A program made the translations under genes and the position numbers. The notes under the pieces were generated by a model. The model searched no databases and was not told where the DNA came from. It saw only the letters and a list, made by a program, of their open reading frames with translations. From Thiomicrorhabdus sp. Kp2 (lineage in GTDB: Bacteria; Pseudomonadota; Gammaproteobacteria; Thiomicrospirales; Thiomicrospiraceae): a stretch of 64,000 nucleotides of DNA. The DNA lies in NCBI RefSeq assembly GCF_000478585.1, contig NZ_ARWI01000001.1:744001-808000 (forward strand), in the 5' to 3' direction. Below, piece by piece: positions 7,622 through 11,442 of this stretch (positions within the stretch are counted from its first letter, which is position 1; every line of letters starts with the position of its first letter).

Positions 7622-7660
7622 TAAGATAGAACCACGTTTATCATCTTAAGGTTCTCTGTT

Positions 7661-8173
7661 ATGCATTGGCTTCACACGGTTAATTTACGCTCATTATTAT
7701 TACCAGGCCTGGTTATTTCTTTGTTGTTTTCTTCAAATGTTTACAGTGATACTAGCGTTTTGCCTATCGCCAAAAATTTACAAGAGCTGGGTAAACAAGC
7801 CACTAAACAGAATTTACCGATTGCTATACTGTTTTCTGCCAAGGGTTTGAAATCGACTGATAATTTAAAGGATGAGGCCATTGTGCCTACGCTTTATTCT
7901 GGCGCTTTAGACGGCTTTGTTTTAATGACTGAAATTAATGTGAATGTGGATGAAACCACGATTGATTTTTATGGAGAGGCAACAGCCAACGCTGAATTTA
8001 AAGCTCTATATAACTTAACCAGTTTACCCGTGGTGATTTTTGTCAATGGTGAGGGTGAAGTCATTACTAATCAACTGCTTTCAGGGGCGTATGATTTTTA
8101 TCCATTCTATTTAAAACAATCGATTAATCAGGCCTTAAAAGCGTTAGGTAATCCAAAACAGATTGCAGATTGA
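7661..8173 (+). CDS. Exported thioredoxin-fold protein lacking a CXXC site
   Basis: A 170-residue protein with an N-terminal signal peptide of about 29 residues (hydrophobic LLLPGLVISLLFSS). The mature part has the strand order of thioredoxin-fold proteins. 'LPIAILFSAKGLKSTDNL' stands where a WCxxC motif is usually found, and 'LTSLPVVIFVNGEGEVI' carries the cis-proline loop. The mature protein has no cysteine, so redox catalysis is unlikely. A role in binding or scaffolding is possible. TAAGG nine bases upstream supports the start. The signal-peptide codons include one exact copy of the iterated palindrome. Confidence 0.65.
   Translation: MHWLHTVNLRSLLLPGLVISLLFSSNVYSDTSVLPIAKNLQELGKQATKQNLPIAILFSAKGLKSTDNLKDEAIVPTLYSGALDGFVLMTEINVNVDETTIDFYGEATANAEFKALYNLTSLPVVIFVNGEGEVITNQLLSGAYDFYPFYLKQSINQALKALGNPKQIAD
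7703..7712. repeat. Iterated palindrome CCAGGCCTGG, intragenic
   Basis: Exact copy inside the signal-peptide codons of the thioredoxin-fold gene (encoding part of LPGLV). Confidence 0.85.
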
Positions 8174-8235: not shown

Positions 8236-9030
8236 TTACAGGTTTTGCATATCCTCTAGAAATGGAAACTGCTTTCTAACCTTTTCAACTTGCTCAAGCT
8301 CTATGGTTGCCGTTATACATTCTTGTTCAGAGTTTCCATAAGCTAACACTTCGCCTAAAGGTGAAACTACCATTGAACCACCAAGATAATTCAGTCCATT
8401 ACCATCTTGACCAATACGGTTAACGCCAATAACAAAGCATTGGTTTTCTATTGCTCTAGCCTTTAATAAAGTCTCCCAATGATTTTGACGAGAATCTGGC
8501 CAATTGGCGATCACAATCATACCCTTTACCTGCTGTGCTACTTGCCTAAACAGTTCAGGAAAACGTAAGTCATAACAGATAAACAGAGCAAATGGACTAC
8601 CGTTAATGTCGACCATTTTGGGTTGATGACCTGCTATATAGGTTTGTTGTTCATTGGCGTAGCTAAACAGCTTTTGTTTTGTATATGCTGCAATTTGTTG
8701 TCCGTCTGAATTGAATGCCAAAGCACGATTATAGAACAGGGCTTGTTGACCATAACAATTTGTACGCACCTGTTTTTGCCCGACACCAGCAACGATAACC
8801 ACAGCATACTTCTTTGCCAGGCCTGCTAACGTTTGAGTGACTTCACCATCAACCGATTCGGCAAAAGATTCTGGCTGCATTGAAAAACCACCATGAAACA
8901 ACTCTGGCAGTATTAAGAGATCAATCTTTTCATTGGATTGAAATAGAGTTGCTATTTTTGCTTCCAATTCCATTAGATTGGCGGTGCTGTCTAACCATAT
9001 AGAATCCCACTGTAGCGCAACAATGTTCAT
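8236..9030 (-). CDS. Nitrilase-family omega-amidase, YafV-like
   Basis: 264 residues of the carbon-nitrogen hydrolase fold. The catalytic triad is visible as Glu43 (LPELFHGGFSM), Lys118 (AYTKQKLF) and Cys152 (FICYDLRFPE). The HGGFSM and YDLRFPE motifs point to the YafV/Nit2 omega-amidase branch, which removes ammonia from alpha-keto acid amides such as 2-oxoglutaramate and 2-oxosuccinamate as a metabolite repair step. It is cytosolic and transcribed alone, divergent from the small peptide genes. Confidence 0.85.
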   Translation of the reverse strand: MNIVALQWDSIWLDSTANLMELEAKIATLFQSNEKIDLLILPELFHGGFSMQPESFAESVDGEVTQTLAGLAKKYAVVIVAGVGQKQVRTNCYGQQALFYNRALAFNSDGQQIAAYTKQKLFSYANEQQTYIAGHQPKMVDINGSPFALFICYDLRFPELFRQVAQQVKGMIVIANWPDSRQNHWETLLKARAIENQCFVIGVNRIGQDGNGLNYLGGSMVVSPLGEVLAYGNSEQECITATIELEQVEKVRKQFPFLEDMQNL

Positions 9031-9106
9031 TAATTAACCTCTAATAATGATTTAACTATTTATTTTACCCTCAATAACCAGTGATAAAAATAATGGTAAA
9101 AAATAT

Positions 9107-9135
9107 TTGACATGTAATATTTTTACATTTATAGT
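9107..9135 (+). promoter_or_regulatory. Sigma-70 promoter for the secreted-peptide pair
   Basis: TTGACA at 9107-9112, a 17-base spacer and TATAGT at 9130-9135 make a near-consensus promoter facing the peptide genes. Transcription would begin near 9142, giving a leader of about 197 bases. A weaker second candidate (TTAACA 9291-9296, 17 bases, TAAAAC 9314-9319) lies closer to the first gene. Confidence 0.55.
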
Positions 9136-9164
9136 GTAAATCAATATATGTAACTTATTTACAT
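9112..9164. promoter_or_regulatory. Two ATGTAA-N5-TTACAT operator-like dyads
   Basis: Perfect 17-bp dyads occupy 9112-9128 and 9148-9164, 36 bp apart start to start. The first covers the promoter spacer and the second starts just past the expected transcription start. An extra TGTAA half-site at 9135-9139 forms TTTACA-N7-TGTAAA around the -10. The placement suggests repression by a dimeric regulator; the regulator is unknown. Confidence 0.5.
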
Positions 9165-9338
9165 TTAATGAAAATCCTTAAATTAAATTGCAATGTTTAC
9201 TGGCTACTTATCGATTTAATTGTGATGCAAAACTCATGTAAAAGATGACCAAAAGTCCTCTCTTCTACATTGAGTAGAATCACATTTCTTTTAACAGTTA
9301 ATCACTTAATGAATAAAACTATTTAGTAAGGAAAGAAT

Positions 9339-9473
9339 ATGAAAAAGATTATTTTTGCAGCACTATTAACGTTTGGTATCGCCTCAACAGCGTCTGCACA
9401 CCATATGTCAGCAAACCCTGATGCTGGTGTGAATATTCCAGATTGGTCACCACATTTAGATATGGTTTTTTAA
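9339..9473 (+). CDS. Small secreted peptide, copy 1
   Basis: A 44-codon gene with AAGGAAAG five bases before its ATG. The first 20 residues form a classic Sec signal peptide (MKKI, hydrophobic core, ASTASA before the cut). The predicted mature 24-residue peptide begins His-His-Met and is rich in His, Asp, Pro and Met, with no cysteine. I know no named family. The neighbour at 9543-9677 is a near copy: seven of the ten or so changed codons are synonymous, and only residues 5, 6 and 36 differ (Ile-Phe-Trp here). This is the pattern of a protein kept by selection. The peptide could act in the periplasm or outside; metal binding through the N-terminal histidines is a guess. Confidence 0.75.
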   Translation: MKKIIFAALLTFGIASTASAHHMSANPDAGVNIPDWSPHLDMVF

Positions 9474-9542
9474 TAGATTCAAAAGATTGAATTTAAAAAA
9501 CAAGACAAAACAAAGACAGAATTAAAGAAAAAGGTAAATATC

Positions 9543-9677
9543 ATGAAAAAGATTTTTTTAGCAGCACTATTAACGTTTGGTATCGCTTCAACAGCTTCAG
9601 CTCACCATATGTCAGCAAACCCTGATGCAGGTGTGAATATTCCAGATACTTCACCTCATTTAGACATGGTTTTTTAA
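9543..9677 (+). CDS. Small secreted peptide, copy 2
   Basis: Second member of the tandem pair, 44 codons, starting 69 bases after the stop of copy 1 and preceded by AAAGGT. The signal peptide and mature sequence match copy 1 except Phe5, Leu6 and Thr36. The two genes are probably co-transcribed from the promoter near 9107 and end at the hairpins at 9707-9763 and 9773-9802. Function unknown. Confidence 0.75.
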   Translation: MKKIFLAALLTFGIASTASAHHMSANPDAGVNIPDTSPHLDMVF

Positions 9678-9706
9678 TTAAAGCTATATCGCGTAAGTTT
9701 GCATCT

Positions 9707-9763
9707 TTATTAGCGGGAACCACTCTCTCCTCTCTCCTCTCTCCTCAAAGTTACTGCTAATAA
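9707..9763 (+). ncRNA. Hairpin with triple CTCTCCT loop, sRNA candidate
   Basis: TTATTAGC (9707-9714) pairs perfectly with GCTAATAA (9756-9763). The 41-base loop contains three tandem copies of CTCTCCT (9725-9745). As RNA the loop would be complementary to Shine-Dalgarno sequences. It lies between the second peptide gene and a terminator, so a 3'-UTR-derived regulatory RNA is plausible but unproven. Confidence 0.4.
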
Positions 9764-9772
9764 GATACAAAA

Positions 9773-9802
9773 AAGCCCGCAATCTATTTTGATGCGGGCT
9801 TC
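9773..9802. terminator. Bidirectional terminator between peptide genes and ybiT
   Basis: AAGCCCGCA and TGCGGGCTT form a nine-base stem with a 12-base loop. On the minus strand it is followed by six T residues, so it should stop ybiT transcription well. On the plus strand the tail is TCTCTGTTTT, weaker. Confidence 0.75.
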
Positions 9803-9840
9803 TCTGTTTTAAGGCATTTAAAATCGTTTAACAAATAAAT

Positions 9841-11442
9841 TTAAGAAACTTGGGTTTCCAAGTACGACTCGTAATCTCCTCTAAAGTCTTCAATACCGTC
9901 TTCTTTCATAATCAATAAACGTGTGGCAATCGATGATACAAATTCACGGTCATGTGATACAAAGATGATTGTGCCAGGGAAATTTTCCATCGCTAAGTTG
10001 AGTGATTCAATCGATTCCATATCCAAGTGGTTGGTTGGCTCATCCATAATCAGCACGTTTGGTTTTTGTAACATTAATTTACCAAACAACATACGGCCTT
10101 GCTCACCACCTGAAAGTACTTTAACTGACTTATCAATCTCTTTTTGCGAGAATAACAGACGACCTAAAACGGCACGAAGTGCTTGTTCATCATCCCCTTC
10201 TTGTTTCCATTGTGCCATCCAATCGATTAAAGTTAAATCTTCGGCAAATTCATGGGCATGATCCTGAGCATAATAACCAATTTTAACGTTATCAGACCAT
10301 TTCACCACTCCTGAAGTTAATTCAGTGTCACCCACTAAACATTTCAAGAAAGTGGTTTTACCCGCACCGTTAGCCCCTAAAACCGCTAAACGTTCTTCTA
10401 CTTCTAGCATAAGATTGAGGTCTTTTAGAACTTCATTTTTTTCGCCATCATTGTCATAGATTTTGTTTAGTTTTTGAACTTCTAACGCCAAACGGAATAG
10501 TTTTTTATCTTGCTCAAAACGAATAAATGGGTTTACACGACTTGAGGCTTTAACTTCTGACAATTCAATCTTATCAATTAACTTAGCACGAGAAGTAGCC
10601 TGTTTTGCTTTAGAAGCATTTGCCGAGAAACGGCTTACAAAGGTTTTTAGCTCAGCAATTTGCGCTTGTTTTTTAGCGTTATCAGACAGTAGTTGCTCTC
10701 GAGCCATGGTTGATGCTGTCATGTATTCATCATAGTTACCAGGGTAAAGACGTAGCTCACCATAGTCTAAATCGGCCATATGGGTACAGACACTGTTCAA
10801 GAAGTGTCTATCATGGGAGATAATAATCATGGTACTTTTACGATCATTCAAAACCGTTTCTAACCAACGAATGGTGTTAATGTCCAAGTTGTTGGTTGGC
10901 TCATCAAGTAACAGAATATCAGGATCAGCAAATAGCGCTTGGGCAAGCAAAACTCGTAACTTCCAACCTGGAGCCACTTCACTCATTAGACCAAAGTGTT
11001 GCTCAACTGGAATCTCAAGACCGAGCAGTAATTCACCCGCACGCGATTCTGCTGTATAACCATCCATTTCACCAAATTTAACTTCTAGATCGGCAACTAA
11101 CATACCCTCTTCTTCAGACATCTCTGGCAAACCATAAATACGGTCACGCTCACGTTTGACTTCCCAAAGTTCTGGCTGCCCCATAATAACCGTGTCAACC
11201 ACCGTAAACTCTTCATAAGCAAACTGATCCTGCTTTAGCTTACCAACACGCTCATTCTCATCAATACTGACCGTACCTGAAGTTTGCTCTAAATCGCCCC
11301 CCAGAATTTTCATAAAGGTTGATTTTCCACAACCATTAGCGCCAATTAAACCATAACGGTTACCGTTACCAAATTTAACGGAGATGTCTTCAAAAAGAGG
11401 TTTTTCACCAAACTGCATGGTGATATTTGCTGTTGAAATCAA
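9841..11442 (-). CDS. ybiT: ABC-F ATPase YbiT
   Basis: 533 residues with two ABC domains and no membrane segment, the ABC-F layout. Walker A motifs are GANGCGKST (residues 34-42) and GANGAGKTT (near 357). Walker B motifs end DEPTNNLD and DEPTNHLD. The first half keeps the YbiT-specific [11 protein letters not shown] segment and the second the LSGGEQGR signature. ABC-F proteins act on the ribosome, helping stalled translation. The close match to E. coli YbiT extends over the full length. It is transcribed alone. Confidence 0.93.

Follow-up and report, generated by a model that had tools for sequence, protein, structure and literature searches.

The window, the 64,000-nucleotide stretch of DNA that we analyzed, covers positions 744001-808000 of the single 2.73-Mb contig that makes up the Thiomicrorhabdus sp. 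Kp2 genome. At 9339-9677 it holds a tandem pair of near-identical genes for 44-residue peptides, whose coordinates, lengths and sequences, as given in an earlier note made from the DNA letters, proved exact. The features of the locus, with the basis for each, are as follows:

9107..9135, plus strand: array promoter TTGACA-17-TATAGT (11 of 12 consensus matches; aligned in relatives)
9112..9128, no strand: operator-like palindrome 1, ATGTAATATTTTTACAT, between the -35 and -10 elements (exact palindrome, genome count)
9148..9164, no strand: operator-like palindrome 2, ATGTAACTTATTTACAT, just past the expected transcription start (also in the congeneric genome G029)
9328..9335, plus strand: ribosome-binding site of gene 1, AAGGAAAG (read from sequence)
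9339..9473, plus strand: peptide gene 1, MKKIIFAALLTFGIASTASA then HHMSANPDAGVNIPDWSPHLDMVF (sequence, translation, homologues, selection)
9399..9470, plus strand: predicted mature 24-residue peptide 1 (A-S-A/H cleavage pattern and a conservation boundary there)
9530..9535, plus strand: ribosome-binding site of gene 2, AAAGGT (read from sequence; unit structure matches that of relatives)
9543..9677, plus strand: peptide gene 2, MKKIFLAALLTFGIASTASA then HHMSANPDAGVNIPDTSPHLDMVF (sequence, translation, homologues, selection)
9773..9801, no strand: GC-rich hairpin, AAGCCCGCA...TGCGGGCTT, flanked by A/T, in the gap that separates the array from the convergent ABC-F gene (read from sequence)
9841..11442, minus strand: ABC-F family ATPase gene, the constant neighbour of the array, for which no functional part is claimed (adjoins the array in 8/8 Thiomicrorhabdus array genomes)

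The two peptide genes are separated by 69 bp, and the ribosome-binding site of gene 2 lies inside that stretch. The two ORFs have 12 nucleotide differences across 10 codons; 7 of these are silent, and the peptides differ at residues 5, 6 and 36 alone, in agreement with the earlier reading that most changes are synonymous. By the NG86 method, dN was 0.046 and dS 0.302. The array promoter was the sole promoter-like site in 9030-9860, judged by consensus match only, and the pair reads as an operon behind one strong promoter. The hairpin at 9773..9801 is probably a terminator common to the array and the ABC-F gene, and was not among the calls of a terminator scan.

Both peptides run from MKK through a hydrophobic core and ASA to the cut point and HH, and the mature part of each starts HHM after ASA and has no cysteine, as the note had stated. 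Judged by eye, family members start with MKK or MKR and carry a hydrophobic core and a small-x-A before the conserved His-His, giving the basic n-region, hydrophobic core and A-x-A of a Sec/signal peptidase I substrate. No lipobox cysteine of the kind expected of a lipoprotein was found in either peptide. The form of the signal peptide is conserved across members, which favors the proposal that the peptides are secreted; we infer export, with cleavage predicted after A-x-A from the A-x-A/H pattern and the conservation boundary. An AlphaFold model contained only the signal helix (residues 2-20) and a short turn at 38-41, leaving the acidic, not cationic, mature part without a fold. H21, H22, A29, G30, S37 and H39 were invariant in 29 family members; one divergent Sulfurovum copy has Asp in place of H21, and a strict His-His site is therefore not universal. 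A C-terminal Phe is present in nearly all family members and absent from some.

Searches of Pfam, NCBIfam and PHROG profiles returned signal-peptide noise as best matches and no family above its cut-off (LPAM_1, 15.5 bits against a cut-off of 20; PA0050_fam, 14 against 45; phrog_16511, E 0.065), in line with the note, to which no known family had come to mind. Six strings taken from the peptides were absent from all 5.39 million papers searched, a literature search for DUF2202 found nothing, and the peptide family is previously unnamed. Genes this short tend to be dropped by annotation pipelines, which would account for the lack of a name for an exported peptide family that reaches seven copies per genome, is under purifying selection and is spread over two phyla. 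Plasmid (tblastn) and viral-contig searches gave no peptide matches, and the other Gammaproteobacteria in a 369-genome class sample yielded signal-peptide look-alikes only and no genuine members. A match in Bacteroidaceae (L070) was rejected, as it aligns with the signal region of a longer protein, and those in five further genomes (G255, G260, G304, G464 and G520) were rejected as matches to the signal region of longer proteins only.

The search of related genomes that the earlier note had called for recovered peptide genes in 8/32 congeneric genomes, in every case as a tandem array next to the same ABC-F gene, as well as relatives in a second phylum. The arrays hold 2 copies in the window genome, 4 in G029, 7 in G026, 6 in G027, 3 each in G006, G008 and G005 and at least 2 in G004. 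The G004 array (L067 9146-9460) runs into an N gap, probably of collapsed repeats, and copy numbers from draft genomes may therefore be underestimates. The intergenic stretches are 45-69 bp in length, each with a 3’ end resembling a ribosome-binding site. Several successive units of G026 and G027 are 100% identical in both coding and intergenic DNA, which points to recent amplification. Selection for dosage is suggested by the 2-7 copies per array and by the uniformity of some arrays. The gene after the array is convergent in 8/8 Thiomicrorhabdus array genomes. The other flank is a CN-hydrolase gene in the window genome and G008, a gene for an exported protein of roughly 1000-aa in G029 and G006, and a homologue of the window’s 7658-8173 protein in G005, and the arrays of G026, G027 and G004 are divergent from a two-component system and RND efflux operon. 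The G027 pump, the one tested, is of the CusA/CzcA type (1023 bits against a cut-off of 701). Assignment of the two-component systems to heavy-metal families was tried and rejected, as no two-component protein tested reached the family cut-off.

A family profile search led to Sulfurovum sp. AR (Campylobacterota), which has six peptide copies at five places and a mature peptide with 88% amino-acid identity to the second G029 copy. Leaving out matches that cover the signal region only, we counted genuine members in 9-10/78 genomes of the Sulfurovum sp. AR genus and in about 12/397 genomes across the phylum sample. The mature peptides fall into two types, with the approximate patterns HHM-x4-DAG-x2-IP-x2-SPHL-x-M-x-F (type 1) and HH[NP][SA]P-x3-AG-x2-[IM]-x3-SGH[LW] (type 2), which have in common H21 (Asp in one copy), H22, A29, G30, S37 and H39. 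Between the phyla, dN was 0.05-0.27 and dS 0.6 to saturation for the mature part, and dN was 0.33-0.68 for the signal part. The mature part is thus kept better than the signal part, indicating that the mature peptide is what selection keeps. The profile matches (E down to about 1e-31 in the window genome), the congeneric arrays and the second-phylum relatives, in which the mature part is retained at a dS that is high or saturated, indicate that the ORF pair is not a product of chance, and the note’s view of real, selected small proteins gains from both the homologues and the purifying selection. Its overall reading of the peptides as real, exported by all signs and of no named family is upheld by these comparisons; the regulon, the larger arrays and the cross-phylum spread are beyond what its reader could see.

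Some further observations were made on the Sulfurovum loci. In the Sulfurovum group (L075, L082, L084-L087, L090-L092), an ABC-F gene adjoins the peptide genes at most of the loci examined. The peptide genes often come directly after it, mostly with a YebC-like gene next, and at the five loci compared the ABC-F protein has 42-44% identity to that of the window. Three Sulfurovum-group genomes (G403, G431 and G479; L077, L078, L079, L099, L101-L103) contain dispersed near-identical copies of a HHPAPVDQAGSGIPDNSGHWDA... peptide gene, whose identity blocks start at, and often end near, palindromes of the form AACCTTATAA-N11-TTATAAGGTT; exact copies of this palindrome number 11-16 per genome. The dispersed copies look like mobile cassettes or small repeats between recombination-type sites.

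We analyzed the distribution of the palindrome that overlaps the array promoter. ATGTAA-N5-TTACAT occurs at 5 sites in the whole window genome, compared to 0.5-0.8 expected from base composition, and the exact palindrome is found 4-6 times per genome in the window genome, G006, G008 and G029 (20 sites in total). Four loci account for 18/20 sites: the array; a gene for a Gln-rich exported protein ending GSM...GGGGK[RH]; an operon of genes for a Met/Gln-rich exported protein, an outer-membrane-like protein and a DUF6502 protein, in that order; and a gene for a DUF2202 ferritin-like exported protein. The remaining palindromes, before ruvB (G006) and a membrane protein gene (G029), have no counterpart and were taken as chance. 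The position of the palindrome over the promoter core suggests repression. In G026, G004 and G027 a TGGGAAAnTTTCCCA-like palindrome has taken the place of this element, at the array as well as at the Gln-rich gene, as would be expected of one changing regulator that serves both. The outer half-sites of the palindrome resemble what we take to be the Zur box; a zinc (Zur) regulon was rejected because zinc-uptake genes are absent among the palindrome sites. About 1-5 kb past the Met-rich operon of the window genome (L203 1979-6207) we also noted a lipoprotein-like protein carrying SGFGGTG repeats, a two-component system that resembles BaeS/BaeR but scores below cut-off, and an exported protein rich in His.

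In seven genomes (the window genome, G006, G008, G029, G026, G004 and G027) the Gln-rich gene has as its neighbour a LuxR-type gene with a GerE domain. It is present in 7/8 array genomes compared to 1/24 others (Fisher p 2e-5; p 2e-4 among near-complete genomes), values that may be inflated by shared ancestry. Grouping of the LuxR-type sequences follows that of the palindrome, with two groups (identities of 57-75% and 57-60% within groups, 30-40% between them). G005 has an array and palindromes and yielded no LuxR-type homologue at E 1e-20, and the regulator may therefore be a protein other than the LuxR one. On this evidence, we put binding of the palindrome by the LuxR-type protein at nearly an even chance, and its place as the regulator is tentative. 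In both Thiomicrorhabdus groups, an exosortase-family gene (TIGR04178 above cut-off) and a gene for a choice-of-anchor F protein lie next to the LuxR-type gene (L201 7589-9897 and L204 6994-9071).

The operon-leading peptide genes of Campylobacterota are preceded by a different element, heptamer-4-heptamer-9-TANANT, in which two 7-bp repeats are set at an 11-bp period; the heptamer resembles YTTCACA in the Sulfurovum group and RCTAACA in another. Such a layout is the usual form of OmpR/PhoB-type activator sites. A stricter version of the pattern found 2-6 sites in each of seven genomes, compared to expectations per genome of 0.04-0.06 for exact sites and 1.5-2.3 with one mismatch, and to 0-3 in controls. 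The element also stands before the gene for a Gln-rich exported protein (L193; weaker in L192 and L195), that for a Met/Gln-rich exported protein with an outer-membrane protein (L194, L196, L197 and L198) and the DUF2202 gene (L191, L192 and L195). In L194, L196, L197 and L198 the Met/Gln-rich operon lies next to genes for an OmpR-type response regulator and a kinase, and a LuxR-type homologue adjoins the DUF2202/Gln-rich locus in L191, L192 and L195; the LuxR-type gene thus adjoins the same locus set in both phyla. At the latter three loci, the Gln-rich and DUF2202 genes come after two genes for exported proteins of roughly 440-450 aa that carry CxxCH close to the N-terminus; the pair from L191 had no Pfam or NCBIfam match.

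We compared the partner genes across the two phyla. The DUF2202 proteins matched in a profile comparison (99%, E 9e-20), and the Campylobacterota LuxR-type proteins were 32-35% identical to that of the window genome (E 1e-46 to 1e-54). The Gln-rich proteins matched at 97% (E 3e-11) over 32 columns, a less certain result owing to low complexity, and a GGGGKR end is common to 2/4 of them. Three of the five partners are therefore supported besides the peptide. The outer-membrane proteins gave a weak match (14%), and the Met/Gln-rich proteins are similar in kind only. The unexpected part is that a regulon with related partners appears in two phyla under different DNA elements. It would be a case of regulatory rewiring, in which the same gene set is placed under a palindrome, a variant palindrome in sister species and tandem repeats in the other phylum, and the cis-elements, the LuxR-type gene and the two-component system offer handles for the presumed inducing signal. 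We give an even chance to the broader proposal that gamma- and epsilon-type sulfur oxidisers have in common a so far undescribed regulon for stress or growth phase, in which a new class of exported His-His peptides, made in large amounts, works with Gln-rich, Met-rich and ferritin-like envelope proteins, with the cis-element swapped and the gene set kept. A cross-phylum family that is probably induced with relatives of the same partner genes looks like a real, overlooked secreted-peptide response in sulfur oxidisers.

We propose that a DNA-binding regulator holds the strong promoter at the two palindromes and that its release would allow two or more near-identical 44-aa precursors to be made. 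The precursors would be exported via Sec and cleaved behind A-x-A, giving 24-residue peptides with His-His at the N-terminus, and these would act in the periplasm or outside the cell with the co-regulated Gln-rich, Met-rich, outer-membrane and DUF2202 ferritin-like proteins, in the setting of an envelope stress or growth-phase response. Copy number would serve dosage, and the N-terminal His-His together with the invariant His residue 39 may bind a transition metal or a metal-containing ligand. Going by the genes, the peptides most likely belong to a stress or growth-phase regulon as cell-envelope peptides made in large amounts, and are perhaps metal-binding. The regulon part alone, comprising the array and the partner loci, is well supported and held with high confidence; the whole proposal including metal binding is tentative, and we rate it somewhat below even. 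The lead to metal comes from the three arrays divergent from a two-component system and RND efflux operon. The palindrome regulon of the window’s species contains no metal-resistance gene, and metal binding leaves the invariant Ala-Gly, the Ser and the usual C-terminal Phe unexplained.

That last residue is taken up by another explanation, in which the peptides serve a surface layer or matrix as structural or folding accessories, acting with the Gln-rich, Met-rich and outer-membrane proteins, and bind an outer-membrane or PDZ-type partner through the conserved C-terminal aromatic residue. The Phe of nearly all members, the regulon of exported, low-complexity proteins, the exosortase-family gene and choice-of-anchor F protein at the Thiomicrorhabdus LuxR locus and a DUF2202 gene that follows one for a choice-of-anchor O protein all suit such a role. 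We nevertheless consider it unlikely: the peptide itself is without a sorting signal, the Phe is missing from some members and the conserved histidines go unexplained. The peptides could also be extracellular signals or competition peptides of the pheromone or bacteriocin kind, with many copies for output and LuxR-type control, given that the genes are multi-copy, that some positions vary from species to species, that a LuxR-type gene co-occurs and that one genome contains both mature types (HHM... and HHN/HHP...). No immunity, maturation, modification or dedicated export gene was recognised beside the arrays in the loci examined, however, and together with the acidic mature peptide this argues against a simple antimicrobial. 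The mature sequences are also very alike across phyla, unlike most competition peptides, and the partner genes encode exported or outer-membrane proteins, making such a function quite improbable.

The very short ORFs and the lack of a predicted fold in the mature part would fit a last explanation, in which the mature peptide is a by-product and the ORFs are translated regulatory or stress-sensing leaders, or drifting duplicates. A leader role does not fit in Thiomicrorhabdus, where the gene after the array is convergent in all eight genomes, and a by-product would not be expected to show, across phyla, stronger conservation of the mature part than of the signal part and a dN far below dS; we regard this explanation as highly improbable.

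Small metal-binding periplasmic peptides and chaperones are likewise short, exported, His-bearing and multi-copy; a possible metal affinity is suggested by the conserved histidines and gene neighbours, and the His-His peptides differ in that their sequence matches none of the known families. Among the EpsA-type LuxR regulators tied to exosortase systems (TIGR03020), the match of the linked LuxR-type protein is weak, with 28.8 bits in the window genome and 32.2 bits in Campylobacterota, far below the cut-off of 170 bits. The exosortase-family gene at the Thiomicrorhabdus LuxR locus is in keeping with that system, but the His-His peptides carry no sorting signal. Closest in working is DccRS of Campylobacter jejuni, which, in the excerpts of two reports, is an OmpR-type regulator with a handful of putative periplasmic and membrane protein genes, active in late stationary phase (PMC9449129, PMC7118207). 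An OmpR-type regulator with few putative periplasmic or membrane proteins is the point of likeness; the same excerpts report no His-His peptides, DUF2202 or Gln-rich protein for DccRS. A DccRS-like tandem repeat was not found in the Thiomicrorhabdus promoters, which carry the palindrome. The Campylobacterota peptide loci have the tandem repeat architecture, and an OmpR-type response regulator and kinase lie beside the Met/Gln-rich operon, so that a place in a DccRS-type regulon may be considered for them. The Sulfurovum peptide promoters carry TTCAC-N6-TTCAC before the -10 element, a form like that of the DccR site.
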